37,961 bases of DNA. It comes from a virus. This document shows positions 9,046 to 26,105 of the stretch, in pieces. A model generated the notes under the pieces. It saw only the letters and a program-made list of their open reading frames with translations, was not told where the DNA came from and ran no database searches. Each line of letters begins with the position of its first letter. Within the stretch, counting starts at the first letter, position 1. The translations under genes and the position numbers were made by a program. The DNA lies in the IMG/VR virus record IMGVR_UViG_3300037635_001819, positions 1 to 37,961 of that record; one strand, 5' to 3'.

Positions 9046-9316
9046 GATGCCTGGTCAGGTTGCTTGCACATTCTTTTATGTCGCCTCTCACGATGGCTGT
9101 CATAAGCAAGCACTTGAACAAGAGCTAAACATGACAACTGCTTCAGCCAGTAGAAACACAGATCTTTTATCCAAAGGTCGTGTTGGTCGTGGTGCTCAAG
9201 GACTGGGTTTAATCAAAAAGGAGGTAGACCCAACAAATCGTCGTCGTCAAACACTAGAGCTAACAACTTTAGGTAAAGACCTAGCCCGAATGATCAAGCA
9301 AACCATCTATGACTGA
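8960..9316 (+). CDS. MarR-like winged-helix regulator
   Basis: 118 residues from GTG 8960 (an ATG at 8996 is an alternative). It has a MarR-type winged helix: CTFFYVASHDGCHKQALEQE then LNMTTASASRNTDLLSKG (recognition helix) and a wing with GLIKKEVDPTNRRRQTLELT, closing with TTLGKDLARMIKQ. It would bind DNA as a dimer. It lies immediately upstream of, and overlaps, the integrase gene, so control of integrase or of the early-to-middle switch is the natural guess. Confidence 0.7.
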   Translation: MDPIRTQVTDARMEKIHLAFELLRLRDREMPGQVACTFFYVASHDGCHKQALEQELNMTTASASRNTDLLSKGRVGRGAQGLGLIKKEVDPTNRRRQTLELTTLGKDLARMIKQTIYD

Positions 9317-10172
9317 AATTCGAACCTGGGAACAGGCAATGCGTTACACGTTCACTACTCGCCATACGTGGAGACACGGCAATGGTAAGCAGGCAGCGCA
9401 AATCAATTGCAATCATTTCACTCGATTACGTGGATCTTCTTTCCCAGTTAAAAAGATCACACAACCTATCATCGCTCAAATTTCTATTGAACTTGAGGAT
9501 GAAGGTAAGTCAGATGCAACTATCAACCGAATTGTTTCGGCTGTAAGTACTGTCTTACGTCACTGTGAGTTTGATGGACTTATTGAAAACGTGCCTAAGT
9601 ATAGGCGTCGTCAAGAAACTGAAGGTCGAGTAACTTGGTTTACAAAGCCAGAAGTTAAACAATTGCAGAATGTGTCCACTAATGTATTTCAACGCCAAGA
9701 CTTAAGTGAAATCATTGGATTTGCTGCCTATACAGGTATGCGCCAAGGAGAAATACTTAAGATCCGAAAGAAAGACATTGATCTGGTCGCTAACAAGATT
9801 CACGTTGGCGGTGTGCCTACACAAGTCACAAAAGCTAAAAACTGGAGGGCAATCCCTATTCATGAATCAATCCTCGAGTTGGTGACAGACCGTTGTTCAC
9901 AAGCATCACGGTCAGACATCAGGATTTTCGGGGACGAGTGGCGAGACAAGGATCAGCTTCTGAGAGCCTTTAAGAAGGCCAACAGGCTGATCGGCAAGGA
10001 CGAAGCGTATGTCTTCCACACACTGCGTCACAGCTATGCCACATGGCTTGCTGAAGCGGGTGTACCCATTAGGAGCATCCAATCCTTATGTGGCCACAAA
10101 CGTGTAGAGACCACTTTGCGCTACGCCCACGCCTCAGATACAGCTCTCACGGACGCAATGCTTGCCATCTAA
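9309..10172 (+). CDS. int: Tyrosine-family integrase
   Basis: 287 residues. It catalyses site-specific recombination between phage attP and a host tRNA gene. Catalytic residues are visible: Arg145 in TGMRQGE, His237 and Arg240 in HTLRHSYATW, His263 in GHKRVETT, and the nucleophile Tyr272 in LRYAH; a Lys in the beta hairpin KAKNWRAIPI (about 178-180) completes the set. The N-terminal half is a SAM-like core-binding domain. The gene overlaps the winged-helix gene, and a tRNA-Leu piece follows 92 nt later, matching the arrangement known in P-SSP7-type phages. Confidence 0.95.
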   Translation: MTEIRTWEQAMRYTFTTRHTWRHGNGKQAAQINCNHFTRLRGSSFPVKKITQPIIAQISIELEDEGKSDATINRIVSAVSTVLRHCEFDGLIENVPKYRRRQETEGRVTWFTKPEVKQLQNVSTNVFQRQDLSEIIGFAAYTGMRQGEILKIRKKDIDLVANKIHVGGVPTQVTKAKNWRAIPIHESILELVTDRCSQASRSDIRIFGDEWRDKDQLLRAFKKANRLIGKDEAYVFHTLRHSYATWLAEAGVPIRSIQSLCGHKRVETTLRYAHASDTALTDAMLAI

Positions 10173-15269: not shown

Positions 15270-15363
15270 ACCTAACCCACCTACATCTGAAGCAATTAAA
15301 AAAGCACAGTTCGTAGATAAAACATACCAATGGACTAATGCTCGTATTCGATCTGGAGACTGA
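15223..15363 (+). CDS. 46-residue basic peptide bridging helicase and polymerase genes, possible
   Basis: ATG 15223 lies in the last codons of the primase-helicase and the frame stops in the first codons of the exonuclease subunit. It is Gln/Lys-rich (MKQQQPQSLTQRQISKPNPP, then SEAIKKAQFVDKTYQW). It spans the only gap (68 nt) in the replication block, where T7 carries small genes 4.3-4.7. Weak evidence: length and position only. Confidence 0.35.
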   Translation: MKQQQPQSLTQRQISKPNPPTSEAIKKAQFVDKTYQWTNARIRSGD

Positions 15364-15853
15364 CGGTCTACTTGATGATGTTACCAAAATCCACTGCCTT
15401 GTTATTTATGACAGCGAGGCTGATACAACTTGCATCTACAACGATCAAGGTAATCAAGAACCAATTGTCCGTGGAGTACAACGACTAGAAGATGCAGATG
15501 TTTTGGTCGGTCACAACATCATTGGCTTTGACTTACCTGTACTCCAAAAGATTTACCTATGGTTTGATCCGCAAGCTTTTGTGTTGGACACACTGCTTCT
15601 TTCTAGGCTCTATCACACTGATAGGGCAGAGACAGATAAGCAGCTAGATATTTCACGTATGCCATTACAGCTACGTGGACGCCATTCATTGGAGTCATAC
15701 GGCTACAGACTAGGTGAATACAAAGGTGAGTTTGGAAAAACTACCGACTGGCAGGAATGGTCTCCAGAAATGGAAACCTACTGCGCCCAAGATGTACTAG
15801 TAACCACCAAATTATGCGACCACTTCCACCAATACCTGAGTGGGTCAAGCTAG
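15338..15853 (+). CDS. DNA polymerase, 3'-5' exonuclease part (split T7 gp5)
   Basis: 171 residues. Proofreading DnaQ-like domain: Exo I VFDLETDGL (Asp5, Glu7), Exo II VGHNIIGFDLPVL, Exo III YCAQDVLVTTKL, matching T7 gp5 D5/E7, D65 and D174. The frame then stops at TAG 15851-15853, and the polymerase domain resumes in the -1 frame, overlapping by 40 nt. So the normal single 5-gene product is made as two polypeptides, unless a frameshift joins them. The two chains probably assemble. Confidence 0.92.
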   Translation: MLVFDLETDGLLDDVTKIHCLVIYDSEADTTCIYNDQGNQEPIVRGVQRLEDADVLVGHNIIGFDLPVLQKIYLWFDPQAFVLDTLLLSRLYHTDRAETDKQLDISRMPLQLRGRHSLESYGYRLGEYKGEFGKTTDWQEWSPEMETYCAQDVLVTTKLCDHFHQYLSGSS

Positions 15854-17097
15854 AGCACGACGTTGCTCGACTATTAACTAAACAAGAACTACATGGATGG
15901 TATTTTGATGAACGCGCTGCATGGGAACTTGCATCGTCTCTCAGAAAACAACTTGAAGAAACTCACAAACTATTACTTAACAGGTATCCTTACGTTGCCG
16001 GACCAGTATTTACTCCTAAGCGAGATAATCGGACCACAGGCTATGTCAAAGACGCTCCGTTTACCCGTTTAAAAGACACAAACATTACCTCACGAGATCA
16101 TATTTCATGGATATTGCAGACGTATCATGGTTGGAAGCCGACCCAGATGACAGCTACTGGGAAGCCGATTATCGACGAGGTTGTACTGAAGGAGATGGCT
16201 GCCTCAGGTGGGCCATCAGTTGCTTTGGAGTTTCTGAAATGTCTCGATATTACGAAGAGCTTGGGGATGATCTCCGAAGGCACCAACGCATGGCTCAAGC
16301 TATGTACGACTGCTAAACGTATACATCACCATTGCTCAGTTGCAACAGTTACGCACAGATGTGCGCACCGAAATCCCAACCTTGGACAGACAAAAAGTGA
16401 CCCAGAATTCAGAAAACTATTCCAAGCTACACCCGGTCAAGTCATGGTCGGAGCTGATCTTGCTGGGATTGAACTTAGGCTGCTCGGCCACTACCTTGCT
16501 CGTCATGACGGTGGCAGGTATGCGGATATCCTCCTCAATGGAGACATTCACCAAGTTAATGCCGACGCCCTCAAAGTTACTCGAAAGCAAGTTAAAACCA
16601 TCAGCTATTGCTTCACCTATGGCGGGGGAAATGTCAAGCTTGGACATACCTTTGATCCCCAACTAAGCGAAGAAAAAGCTAAAGCTAAAGGTGCTCAGAT
16701 TAGGAAACAGTTTGTAGCAGCAATTCCCGGTCTTGATAAATTACTAGCAGGCATTAAGGAAGCTAGTAAAAGAGGCTATATCAAATCAATAGACGGGCGT
16801 CGCATCAAAGTTGACAGTCCACACAAGGCATTAAATATGCTTTTGCAATCATCAGCCGCAGTAATTGCGAAGCGCTGGATGGTAATTACAAACGACACTA
16901 TTAAACAAACAGGGCTGTGTGCATCACAGCTCGCATTTATACATGACGAACTCCAATACGAATGTTCCGCTGAACACGCAGCTGACCTTTCAACATCCTT
17001 GGTATTTAGCAGCCTCGCAGCTGGAGAATATTACAAGCTCAGAATTCCAATCGAAGCAGAAGCAGTTATCGGCCAAACGTGGGCTGACACACACTAG
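15814..17097 (+). CDS. DNA polymerase, polymerase part (split T7 gp5, family A)
   Basis: 427 residues from ATG 15814 (MRPLPPIPEWVKLEHDVARL), chosen because homology begins at the EWVKLEHD segment; the frame is open further up to 15757. Family A motifs: A VGADLAGIELRLLGH (Asp215), B KVTRKQVKTISYCFTYGGGN (Lys261, Tyr265), C FIHDELQYEC (Asp378). Tyr265 corresponds to T7 Tyr526, which lets the enzyme accept dideoxynucleotides. With the exonuclease part this totals about 598 residues against 704 in T7, so loops such as the thioredoxin-binding one are probably reduced. Confidence 0.93.
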   Translation: MRPLPPIPEWVKLEHDVARLLTKQELHGWYFDERAAWELASSLRKQLEETHKLLLNRYPYVAGPVFTPKRDNRTTGYVKDAPFTRLKDTNITSRDHISWILQTYHGWKPTQMTATGKPIIDEVVLKEMAASGGPSVALEFLKCLDITKSLGMISEGTNAWLKLCTTAKRIHHHCSVATVTHRCAHRNPNLGQTKSDPEFRKLFQATPGQVMVGADLAGIELRLLGHYLARHDGGRYADILLNGDIHQVNADALKVTRKQVKTISYCFTYGGGNVKLGHTFDPQLSEEKAKAKGAQIRKQFVAAIPGLDKLLAGIKEASKRGYIKSIDGRRIKVDSPHKALNMLLQSSAAVIAKRWMVITNDTIKQTGLCASQLAFIHDELQYECSAEHAADLSTSLVFSSLAAGEYYKLRIPIEAEAVIGQTWADTH

Positions 17098-18826: not shown

Positions 18827-20199
18827 CTAATTTAATCTCCCGCACAGGCCGGGTACAATCTTGGATTGATGATCCAACAGGACGACTTCCTGTCAGCTGC
18901 ACAGTATTTGTAGTTGAAAATGAGATGGAAGGACCGAATGGTATCGAAGCTAGCTGGAGGTTTGCTAGTCATGCCCTTAGGTATGGCGCAGGTTGTGCTA
19001 TCCATCTAGATAATCTTGATCCAAAAGGACATCAACGACCTTCAGGTGTTACTGCATCTGGTCCTGTAAGTTTCGGTAAAATTTATAGCACCTTAAATGA
19101 AATACTACGCAGAGGTGGTGTCTACAAAAACGGTGCGATTGTTTTACATATTTCGCTCAATCACCCTGATGCTCTTGACTTTATTACTACTCCTAGATCG
19201 GAACTACCTTGGGTCAAACGATGCATCAACATCACTGAAGAGTGGTGGCAGGATTGTACGTTCAAGGAAGAGCTACTACACGGAATCAAGTCCGGTGACA
19301 TCTGGTTAAACAAAGTTAAGTATGACAATGAAGGAAACAGGATCAGAGGCAACGTTTGTCTTGAGGTGTACTTGCCAAGCCGAGGCACCTGTCTTTTGCA
19401 GCACATCAATCTCGGTGCCTGTGAATTTGACGACATTCCACGAGCTTTCTTTGAAGGGATGCAGGAACTGTGTGCCTTACATGGCAGAACTGGTGTTGGC
19501 GATTCAGGAGAATATCTCCCCAGTGAAACTGATCGACAGGTCGGCCTCGGAATGTTGGGACTTGCCAACCTCTTACGAAGGTACGGAGTAACTTACGAGC
19601 AATTCGGTGAAGCGCTTGATCAATATAATCGCTTCAGAAGTAAACCATTTCACTCAGCTGCTTATGAACTTGTCTCTCAAATTGCTTCAGGAATTAACCA
19701 AGCAGCCGCAGTCGCTCGCAACGCTAATATGGTTCGAGCCTTTGCTATCGCTCCAACCGCCAGTTGCAGTTATCGAAGCTTGGATCTGGATGGCAATACT
19801 TGCACACCAGAAATCGCTCCACCTATCTCGCAGACAGTTGATCGCGACTCAGGTACTTTCGGAGTACAAACTTATAACTACGGTGATGTAGAGATTGCAT
19901 CAGAAGTAGGTTGGAATAATTATAAACGAGTTGCAGACGGCATCATGACGATGCTTGATCGCACAGGACTTCTTCATGGTTATAGCTTCAACTCTTGGAG
20001 TGATGTAGTGACCTACGACAATGCGTTCGTGGAAGAGTGGCTTAGGTCTCCGCAAACCTCTCTCTATTACTCATTACAGGTAATGGGAGACACTCAAGAT
20101 AAGACTGATGCATATGCTGCAATAGATGCAGAAGATGTGGATAAGTATCTAGAGGAACTTTTTAACAATGAAGAACTTACATGTGATTGTCAAGAATGA
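18823..20199 (+). CDS. nrdA: Ribonucleotide reductase catalytic (alpha) subunit, short cyanophage type
   Basis: 458 residues, far shorter than NrdA (about 760) with no N-terminal ATP-cone. It reduces ribonucleotides to deoxynucleotides for phage replication. Key residues: first redox Cys in RLPVSCTVFV, the catalytic NVCLE block (Asn, radical Cys, Glu), LGACEF, and the redox tail TCDCQE. Cyanopodovirus copies were once called class II; the adjacent diiron small subunit shows that this one is class I. It is ATGA-coupled to MazG and to nrdB. Confidence 0.9.
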   Translation: MTNLISRTGRVQSWIDDPTGRLPVSCTVFVVENEMEGPNGIEASWRFASHALRYGAGCAIHLDNLDPKGHQRPSGVTASGPVSFGKIYSTLNEILRRGGVYKNGAIVLHISLNHPDALDFITTPRSELPWVKRCINITEEWWQDCTFKEELLHGIKSGDIWLNKVKYDNEGNRIRGNVCLEVYLPSRGTCLLQHINLGACEFDDIPRAFFEGMQELCALHGRTGVGDSGEYLPSETDRQVGLGMLGLANLLRRYGVTYEQFGEALDQYNRFRSKPFHSAAYELVSQIASGINQAAAVARNANMVRAFAIAPTASCSYRSLDLDGNTCTPEIAPPISQTVDRDSGTFGVQTYNYGDVEIASEVGWNNYKRVADGIMTMLDRTGLLHGYSFNSWSDVVTYDNAFVEEWLRSPQTSLYYSLQVMGDTQDKTDAYAAIDAEDVDKYLEELFNNEELTCDCQE

Positions 20200-21145
20200 A
20201 CCCTTACGAGAAGCTACAAAACAGAAAAAGAAAATGGACACCAGTTCAGACCACTGCCGGATCATGCAAGGCAGGGGCGGAAGAAGCGGTACACCGTGCT
20301 CTTGCGTTGCGACACATGGAACTACCTGTGGGAGATTTTATCCGTGATGCATTGGCAACCGACGTACCAGCACTATCGCGGGAGCTATTGGAATCCAATG
20401 TCAAAGACGAAGAAAACCACGACTTGGCACTTGGTTACATTGCCAATGCTTACGGTGTTAATCAAAAAGCTGAGGCTGAAGCGTTACGGTTACGTGATGC
20501 TTGGACAGCGCATCCGGATCACACGATCCTCAAAGCGATGGTTGCCGAACGTGCAATTTTCTTCGTTCTTCTACCATTCTTTCGCGCTAATGGTGACGCT
20601 GGAATGCGGACAGTAAGTGCGGACATAAGTAGAGATTGAAGCGTTGGTTTCTACTATAAAAAACTAGGTGAATTGCTGGAACTCCTCCTTCTATGGACAA
20701 TCAGCAGCCAAGCCAGTCTACAAGCTGGAAGGTTCAACGACTAACTCCCGAGTGGCAACACAGTAATGGAGACACGAGTGCCTAGCACCTTTTTTGGTGA
20801 AGATATAGTCTGACCTGCATCAATGGTAAAGATGTAGAAGTAAAGGATAAAGAGCCTTTACGATAACACTTGGAACAAATTCACGTTGCTGCCAATAGCA
20901 TTGTTTGTCGGGAGCTGGGGCTTACTGTCAGTCCTTCTCTTGATAAACTCCGCAAGGCAACTATCAATTGGGTAATGCAACCACTAGGTAGCAATGCCGA
21001 TAAATATTTAGACAGAAAATTTTGGCTGGATTCAAGCGACCGATTGATGTATGAAGGCAAAGCTCCTGAGCTTTCTTTCACCAAGGCTGGCCGTGTTCCG
21101 GCGTTCTTTGAACATAGTAATGTCAATTTACCCCAATACGCTTGA
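20196..21145 (+). CDS. nrdB: Ribonucleotide reductase small (beta) subunit, interrupted by a group I intron
   Basis: Join 20196-20636 and 20873-21145, giving 237 residues; the first exon is translated from ATG 20196, overlapping the nrdA stop. Spliced codons read ...ISRD|EQIHVAAN. Predicted diiron ligands: Glu42, Glu72-x-x-His75, Glu118, Glu148-x-x-His151, with spacing close to R2 (30, 46, 30). The position equivalent to the E. coli radical tyrosine is Leu79, so no tyrosyl radical is expected at that site; a Mn/Fe or other cofactor may replace it (inference). The intron divides the gene right before Glu148, the final ligand motif. Unspliced RNA stops at TGA 20637. Confidence 0.88.
20637..20872 (+). 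ncRNA. Group I intron in nrdB (236 nt, no ORF)
   Basis: The 5' splice site follows U20636: exon AGUAGAGAU pairs with intron GUUUCUACU over nine pairs with the terminal U-G wobble, a textbook P1. The core has the elements AATTGCTGGAACTCCT, GACAATCAGCAGCCAAGCC, GGTTCAACGACTAA (P7 5' strand at 20739-20743) and GGTGAAGATATAGTC (P8 end plus P7 3' strand at 20803-20810). The last nucleotide is G20872. Splicing restores the NrdB frame exactly. It resembles phage group I introns of the type in T4 and Twort genes; T4 also has one in nrdB. No homing nuclease lies within it. Confidence 0.93.
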
Positions 21146-24467: not shown

Positions 24468-24474
24468 GCACACG

Positions 24475-24520
24475 TCCGTTCATCCTTCGGGACGCATGAC
24501 ACCATAAGCATGGAACGGGG
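24475..24520 (+). promoter_or_regulatory. Glutamine-II riboswitch candidate (Downstream-peptide motif)
   Basis: P1 CCGTTC (24476-24481) pairs with GAACGG (24513-24518). Inside it are ATCC-TTCG-GGA, a P2 with the stable TTCG loop, then CGCATGACACC-ATAAGCAT. CGTTCA...GGAACG, the P2 and the GACG after it match my memory of the glnA/Downstream-peptide class, which binds glutamine in cyanobacteria and marine phage. What follows supports it: a Shine-Dalgarno sequence and short peptide, as the class name implies. It would tie capsid-region expression to nitrogen status, if functional. Confidence 0.72.
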
Positions 24521-24535
24521 CTTGTGGAACTTCTT

Positions 24536-24541
24536 AGGAGG
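24536..24541 (+). promoter_or_regulatory. Strong Shine-Dalgarno sequence for the leader peptide
   Basis: AGGAGG is 5 nt from the GTG at 24547, the best ribosome site in the window. It lies downstream of the riboswitch candidate, so ligand-dependent masking is possible. Sequence AACTTCTT just before it could pair partly with AGGAGG. Confidence 0.65.
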
Positions 24542-24546
24542 TTACT

Positions 24547-24594
24547 GTGCAGAGCAAGACTTATTGCTATCGCGGTGTTAAGTACACCAAGTGA
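24547..24594 (+). CDS. Leader peptide with YRGVKY core (downstream peptide)
   Basis: 15 residues, GTG start: MQSKTYCYRGVKYTK. YRGVKY matches the short core of cyanobacterial DUF4278 proteins (LTYRGV.Y), the class to which the nitrogen regulator PirA belongs. Known Downstream-peptide RNAs precede such small genes. Ideal Shine-Dalgarno spacing and the riboswitch candidate argue that it is translated. A role in PII-linked nitrogen control of the host is inference. Confidence 0.65.
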   Translation: MQSKTYCYRGVKYTK

Positions 24595-24755: not shown

Positions 24756-26105
24756 ATGGCACATCAGTCTTCAGACCTGACAACCAATCTGGTTAATCTA
24801 GGTCAATCTAATCTTTCCGGTGATAAGCGAGCTTTGTATCTCAAGCTTTTCAGTGGTGAGATGTTCAAAGGCTTCCAGCACAATGCAATCGCTCGCGATC
24901 TTGTGATGAAGCGTACACTTAAGAACGGCAAATCTTTACAATTTATTTACACTGGGCGCACCACGGCGGAATATCATACGCCGGGAAATGCGATTTTGGG
25001 AAACAGCGACGGCGCTCCCCCAGTGGCAGAGAAGACCGTCACGGTCGATGATTTGCTGATCAGTTCAGCTTTCGTTTACGACCTGGACGAAACACTTAGT
25101 CACTACGATTTGAGGTCGGAGATATCTCGTAAAATCGGCTACGCCTTGGCAGAAAAATATGACCGCTTGATCTTCCGTGCAATTGCTCGTGGTGCTCGTG
25201 CAGCATCCCCAGTAAGCGCTACTAACTTCGTAGAGCCCGGTGGTACACAGATCCGTGTTGGTTCTTCTACCAACGAATCTGATGCTTTCTCCTCTACCGC
25301 ATTGGTTGCTGCCTTCTATGACGCAGCCGCTGCAATGGACGAGAAAGGAATTAGTTCAGACGGACGTTGCGCCGTATTGAACCCAAGACAATTTTATGAA
25401 TTGATCCAAGCTGTTGGTTCTAATGGTCTTGTGAACCGTGACGCTCAGGGCTCTGCTCTGCAAGGCGGCAACGGCATCATTGAGATCGCTGGTATCCACA
25501 TCTACAAGTCAATGAACATCCCGTTCCTTGGCAAGTACGGCACCAAGTTTGCCGGTACGACTGGTCAGACTTCTCCTGGTAATACCGGTGACTTCATTGG
25601 TCCTGACCTGGAAGATGCTTCTGCAGCTACTACTGGTATCAACAATGACTACGGCACAGCCTCCGAATTCGGTGCAGTGTCTGCTGGTCTTATTTTTCAA
25701 AAGGAAGCAGCCGCTTGTGTCGAAGCAATCGGTCCTCAAGTCCAAGTGACTTCTGGTGACGTTTCTGTCATCTATCAGGGTAAATAACATTGCCCCTCTA
25801 ATTGGTAACAGTTAGATAAACATCGGATGAATTCAGGGAAACCTAAGGCGAAAGCTATGGCAATCCTGAGCTAAGCCTCTCAAGCGTGAGAGGAAAGTGC
25901 ATCGACTAGATGGTGTGGCACGCTTGCCACGTAATACATCAATAGCGTCCGACACCCTACTGGGTGAAGATATAGTCAGTGCCATCAGAAATGATGGAAT
26001 ACCACGGATGTAATCCTTGGCCGCTTGGCCATGGGTGCAGATTACCTGAACCCCGCTGCAGCCGTTGAGCTGTATGTGGGTTCTACAGCTCCTTCTGCAT
26101 TCTGA
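24756..26105 (+). CDS. Major capsid protein (T7 gp10-like), interrupted by a group I intron
   Basis: Join 24756-25781 and 26007-26105, 374 residues. It forms the HK97-fold capsid shell. Exon 1 shows gp10 features: SLQFIYTGRTTAEYHTPGNA, LISSAFVYDLDETLSHYDL, RCAVLNPRQFYELI, GIHIYKSMNIPFLGKYG. The splice YQG|DVILGRLAMGADYLNPAA restores the C-terminus that ends in TAPSAF. Unspliced RNA ends at TAA 25785-25787, giving a 343-residue product without the last 31 residues, so two forms could exist, reminiscent of T7 10A/10B although the mechanism differs. Confidence 0.95.
25782..26006 (+). ncRNA. Group I intron in the capsid gene (225 nt, no ORF)
   Basis: The 5' splice site follows U25781. P1 is a hairpin, GGGU-AA with UUGCCC, with the U-G wobble at the splice site. 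The core has GGGAAACCTAAGGCGAAAGC, GGCAATCCTGAGCTAAGCC, CATCGACTA (P7 5' strand 25904-25908), ACCCTACTGGGT (P8) and GAAGATATAGTC (P7 3' strand 25972-25977). GGGAAACCT and GGCAATCCTGAGC are close to the cyanobacterial tRNA-Leu(UAA) intron, so it is related to the IC3 group. It ends at G26006. No ORF. It is of a different type from the nrdB intron. Confidence 0.93.

Follow-up and report, generated by a model that had tools for sequence, protein, structure and literature searches.

Group I introns have been described in several phage genes. Subgroup IA2 introns interrupt protein-coding genes of Twort, SPO1 and T4 and the DNA polymerase gene of the T7-like cyanophage Pf-WMP3 (PMC3428280). Mycobacteriophage LittleE carries a probable group I intron in its major capsid gene, with splicing shown by reverse transcription PCR (PMC3706429, which also cites a capsid-gene intron in lactococcal phage Tuc2009), and Twort orf142 holds three introns in one gene according to the title of Landthaler and Shub 1999, cited in PMC11878797. 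Here we describe a 225-nucleotide (nt) group I intron at positions 25782-26006 of a viral DNA stretch of 37,961 nt (IMG/VR record IMGVR_UViG_3300037635_001819; the whole stretch is hereafter the window). After codon 342 it splits the gene for the major capsid protein of a marine, T7-like cyanophage that resembles P-SSP7. We consider it very probable that this is a self-splicing intron of the phage IA2 type, without a homing endonuclease, whose excision yields the normal capsid protein.

The window intron shares with the described IA2 introns the core helices, the P7.1 and P7.2 helices joined by GUA, the exon U, the terminal G and the location in a protein-coding gene, and its phage is T7-like as is Pf-WMP3. 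Unlike the Pf-WMP3 intron, which encodes the HNH endonuclease I-PfoP3I and is without P2 (PMC3428280), it lies in the capsid gene, is 225 nt long and carries no endonuclease. With LittleE it has in common that a probable group I intron sits in a major capsid gene; the LittleE intron differs in being about 819 bp long with an endonuclease open reading frame (ORF) and in occupying one site (PMC3706429). The psbA intron of cyanophage S-CBWM1 has about 70 % identity over 175 nt and is placed close to the capsid introns by the tree described below, but the psbA group I introns of Synechococcus phages S-CBWM1 and S-PM2 differ in that they occupy another gene and are associated with homing endonucleases. 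Twort orf142, going by that title, is likewise a phage gene with group I introns, several in its case; the window capsid gene has one, and a relative, L369, has four in its capsid gene. Phage capsid-gene group I introns, IA2 introns in T7-like cyanophages and a three-intron phage gene are thus already known and the window intron is ordinary in kind. We found no description of capsid introns in T7-like cyanophages or of a multi-site capsid family in the open-access papers searched, which is a weak absence.

The ORF at 24756-25787 encodes 343 residues, of which 342 are capsid codons and one is a lysine contributed by the intron before TAA; the opening in-frame codons of the intron are AAA UAA. 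Joining the exons gives a 374-residue protein to which the P-SSP7 capsid (PDB 2xd8) aligns over the whole length (E value 1.5e-192), spanning the junction ...VIYQG/DVILG... (a slash marks the insertion point) and reaching the last residue. Relatives L003 and L004 (98 % amino acid identity) read TATCAGGGT/GACGTT with nothing in between and thus provide an exact empty site. Because these intronless homologues and P-SSP7 read straight across the junction, sequence comparison demonstrates the limits of the intron. A separate contig, L145, is identical to the window capsid gene, intron included, which makes an assembly artefact unlikely. The parts of the gene are as follows.

24756-25781, + strand: capsid exon 1, codons 1-342 (ORF reading; match to P-SSP7 capsid 2xd8)
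25782-26006, + strand: group IA2 intron, 225 nt, without ORF (RF00028; covarying structure in 21 relatives; empty site in L003 and L004)
25785-25787, + strand: in-frame UAA that would close the unspliced reading at residue 343 (ORF reading)
26007-26105, + strand: capsid exon 2, 32 codons and stop, protein end ...TAPSAF (P-SSP7 match; alignment with T7)

The initial annotation of this DNA had placed a group I intron at 25782-26006, and the Rfam match, the empty sites and the P1 and P10 pairings given below agree with it to the base. That the intron lies close to where the major capsid gene ends was also right. The separation of residue 342 from the last 32 was likewise right in residue counts and frame, as the exon ORFs indicate, and ORF 24756-25787 confirms that unspliced RNA would stop two codons into the intron to give 343 residues.

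The insertion is a group I intron with helices P1 to P9 and a conserved P3/P7 core. It matches the Rfam covariance model RF00028 (Intron_gpI) at 25772-25998 with 98.3 bits in cmscan (gathering score 50, E value 2.1e-24). In a structure alignment of 21 related introns, the 60 proposed pairs are paired in 99 % of cells and 35 of the 60 have changes on both sides. Covariation reaches 0.414 for the proposed structure compared to at most 0.078 when the structure is slid, and shuffles also come nowhere near. The minimum free energy of the intron with its exon ends is 4.65 standard deviations below that of dinucleotide shuffles, none of the 200 shuffles being as low. The helices are listed below, each resting on the 21-row structure unless other support is given.

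25778-25795, + strand: P1, GGGU of the exon (25778-25781) paired to the internal guide GCCC (25792-25795), with a U.G pair at the splice site; where related introns are inserted elsewhere, it changes in step with the exon
25787-25791, + strand: P10 strand ACAUU, pairing over 5 bp with the exon 2 start GAUGU (26007-26011); 9 bp in L140 and 4 bp in L084, covarying there with exon 2
25797-25816, + strand: P2 hairpin with GUAA loop; 8 of 8 pairs changed on both sides
25823-25952, + strand: P3 (25823-25829 with 25946-25952)
25832-25870, + strand: P4 (25832-25838 with 25864-25870) around P5, with the GGGAAACCU...GGCAAUCCUGAGC phrase
25876-25893, + strand: P6a hairpin
25904-25977, + strand: P7, the G-binding helix (GACUA 25904-25908 with UAGUC 25973-25977); invariant in the 21 rows
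25909-25940, + strand: P7.1 (25909-25912 with 25937-25940) and P7.2 (25915-25920 with 25925-25930) with GUA between, an IA2 hallmark (21-row structure; PMC3428280)
25953-25966, + strand: P8 hairpin
25982-25997, + strand: P9 hairpin with GAAA loop

The final intron base is G and the 5' exon ends in a U paired to G, as in group I introns generally. At other insertion sites P1 is refitted to the local exon (GAGU/GCUC, GGCU/GGCC, CAGU/GCUG and ACGU/GCGU as exon/guide pairs). Because P1 and P10 vary in step with the exons across relatives, both splice sites are fixed. An exact-string check of P1 and P10 at the insertion sites did not recover the table entries L179 and L324.

P7.1 and P7.2, both with compensatory changes, come after the 5' strand of P7 and before the 3' strand of P3. 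Their joining by G-U-A is the stated IA2 criterion, which has been applied to the intron of the T7-like cyanophage Pf-WMP3 (PMC3428280), and on these demonstrated sequence features the capsid intron is of subgroup IA2, phage type.

To estimate how widely the intron is distributed, we surveyed the 80 best relatives with a query ending at the insertion site. The intron is present in 3 of these and the site is empty in the other 77. Intron presence corresponds to about 10 changes on a quick capsid tree, at least 6 of them forced by supported branches. Identity to the window intron is 81-96 % where that of the exons is roughly 61-89 %, with 95.6 % for the intron versus 75 % for the exon in L146 and 86 % versus 66 % in L084. 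The alignments thus demonstrate empty sites, patchy presence and an intron more similar than the capsid gene around it, the pattern of horizontal spread at the same site.

The capsid intron has no ORF and encodes no endonuclease. In 19 intron-bearing relatives, many of them fragments, the HNH_3, HNH and GIY-YIG models found no match, and 2 of the 19 have an Endonuclease_7 match about 8-9 kb from the intron. The pattern TAYCARGGTAAATAAC occurs in 81 stretches of viral contigs. About 15 of them could be recognised as holding capsid introns, and among the 81 no copy of the capsid intron with an endonuclease was seen. From the lack of an endonuclease, the patchy distribution and the conservation above that of the exons we infer that the intron moves horizontally. 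Since no endonuclease was found, the route may be recombination, an endonuclease acting in trans or reverse splicing, the last lacking direct evidence in general (PMC3984707).

Related introns are found in capsid genes at eight sites or more (codons 34, 72, 115, 121, about 186, 212, 337 and 342 in window numbering), and the introns of one site mostly form one clade. Splice sites of L179a, L152, L154 and L127, all outside site 342, were set by hand. In three relatives, L140, L179 and L181, the capsid gene contains two group I introns, at different pairs of sites. The capsid gene of L369 (contig IMGVR_UViG_3300020414_000298; 1461-3155, - strand) has four, of 224, 206, 233 and 224 nt, and its five exons join into a clean 329-residue Syn5-like capsid protein. 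Fourteen further intron-bearing contigs have a single RF00028 match each and eight intronless relatives have none. Codons 34, 121 and 342 have GGU/GA and similar guide sequences in common. While this occupation of multiple sites is observed, the mechanism behind it is a proposal: it is conceivable, if somewhat doubtful, that the capsid gene is an intron hotspot in which an endonuclease-free IA2 family hops between look-alike sites, possibly by reverse splicing, resulting in two to four introns per gene.

The initial annotation had assigned the intron to the tRNA-Leu (IC3) type on account of phrases typical of cyanobacterial tRNA-Leu(UAA) introns, and had suggested a possible host origin. A host tRNA-Leu(UAA) intron of subgroup IC3 that moved into the capsid gene would account for the P4-P6 phrase GGGAAACCT...GGCAATCCTGAGC which both have in common. 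However, about 100 viral stretches, phage introns among them, contain the same phrase, as do introns of tRNAs called as Gln, Arg, Met, Thr and further specificities, and it is therefore not diagnostic of tRNA-Leu. The cyanobacterial tRNA-Leu introns sampled, which were retrieved by this phrase, occupy a different gene and have GACGGGAGC directly after P7 with no P7.1/P7.2 insertion, and the capsid-intron profile matches them mostly over P4-P6 (about 30-44 bits). In a quick tree with support from the Shimodaira-Hasegawa-like approximate likelihood ratio test (SH-aLRT), the capsid introns fall together, close to introns from phages (those of S-CBWM1 psbA, a Klebsiella jumbo phage and other viral contigs), and the tRNA-Leu introns form their own clade apart from them, so that the core phylogeny proposed as a check gave no grouping with the tRNA-Leu clade. 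The IC3 tRNA-Leu type is ruled out on structure, P7.1/P7.2 being present with covariation and the 3' strand of P3 not following P7 directly, and we regard a host origin as highly improbable.

It had also been suggested that splicing does here what frameshifting does in T7, at nearly the same place in the gene. Partial splicing would then provide two functional capsids of 343 and 374 residues in the role of T7 10A and 10B. In line with this, the unspliced frame is open to residue 343, close to the length of 10A (345 residues), and regulated splicing of the psbA group I intron has been reported in cyanophage S-PM2 (PMC5931967). The alignment with T7 and solved homologues, on which this comparison is based (an AlphaFold model of L003 from 12 sequences was unusable, with a predicted local distance difference test score of 28.8), nevertheless places window residue 342 at 10A residue 318 of 345 and not at its end, and exon 2 shares homology with the final 27 residues of 10A, the short T7 form, whose end it therefore encodes. 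Because the 10A end coincides with that of the long cyanophage form, the 343-residue product would be without a part of the shell protein that is conserved and is not a 10A equivalent. In addition, 12 intronless capsids show no variation in YQGDV and in most of exon 2, intronless relatives have one capsid form, the long one, and unspliced products at other insertion sites would end anywhere from residue 32 or so, as in one phage, up to 343. The early stop, which overlaps the P10-pairing strand, is lost in L140 and L108. A two-form capsid thus seems very hard to sustain. The idea of the stop as a conserved signal was dropped as well, because L140 and L108 are without the stop and yet retain P10. 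Somewhat less improbable, but still unlikely, is a cis-regulatory use in which splicing efficiency tunes the timing or dose of capsid (for example with guanosine level or light) and the intron is kept for that purpose. The presence of introns in the capsid gene across many lineages speaks for it, while the absence of the window intron from 77 of the 80 closest relatives, 98 %-identical ones included, the variable insertion positions and the compact core with no added regulatory domain speak against it.

We therefore favour a self-splicing IA2 intron without an endonuclease. The intron would excise itself from the capsid mRNA in a guanosine-dependent reaction that ligates codons 342 and 343, resulting in a single 374-residue capsid protein. 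In phage introns, the simplest reading of an early stop is that it shields the ribozyme core from ribosomes, as in the T4 td intron. By this analogy the early UAA is most likely incidental to capsid production, only keeping ribosomes off the core, with the 343-residue truncated product a by-product. The intron would persist by horizontal transfer into the conserved YQG/D site of intronless capsid alleles, through recombination possibly aided by an endonuclease supplied in trans, as a member of a family that has colonised at least 8 capsid sites in marine T7-like phages.

Several points weigh against this interpretation. Splicing in vivo is what we infer from the sequence. The window contains a small HNH ORF (934-1263; PF01844, E value 6e-14) near the terminase gene, about 25 kb from the intron; this endonuclease has no match in the 19 related intron-bearing contigs. 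An endonuclease of another family, or one on the missing part of an incomplete contig, may exist. The clade of major capsid protein introns is moderately supported in the broad tree (79 % SH-aLRT), in which the tRNA introns were those chosen by the shared phrase. The structural difference from tRNA-Leu introns is clear from the aligned sequences despite this moderate support.

Other features of the window were recorded. A second group I intron (covariance model match at 20596-20837, 66.7 bits; intron roughly 20606-20866, limits approximate) splits a ribonucleotide reductase class Ia beta gene, of which one ORF (20187-20639) and the next (20870-21145) correspond to successive portions of phrog_6799; this intron is not close to the capsid intron in sequence. 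Upstream of the capsid gene lies a Glutamine-II riboswitch (42.8 bits), followed by a 15-codon ORF at 24547-24594 (VQSKTYCYRGVKYTK) that has a strong ribosome-binding site; the two together span 24474-24594. P-SSP7, L003, L004, L113 and L369 likewise have the riboswitch upstream of their capsid genes. The DNA polymerase (15338-17097) is in two overlapping ORFs, 15338-15853 and 15757-17097, that correspond to successive portions of phrog_17; the frame changes near 15830, which may reflect a sequencing error, a frameshift or a split gene. This T7-like cyanophage genome also has a tyrosine integrase gene at 9309-10172.

The presence of such introns means that, in marine T7-like phages, a marker gene in wide use will be missed or truncated by automatic annotation and capsid-gene surveys. 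The intron family, with at least 8 sites, up to 4 introns per gene and no endonuclease, offers a natural system for both the spread of endonuclease-free introns and the tolerance of several ribozymes by a gene with very high expression.
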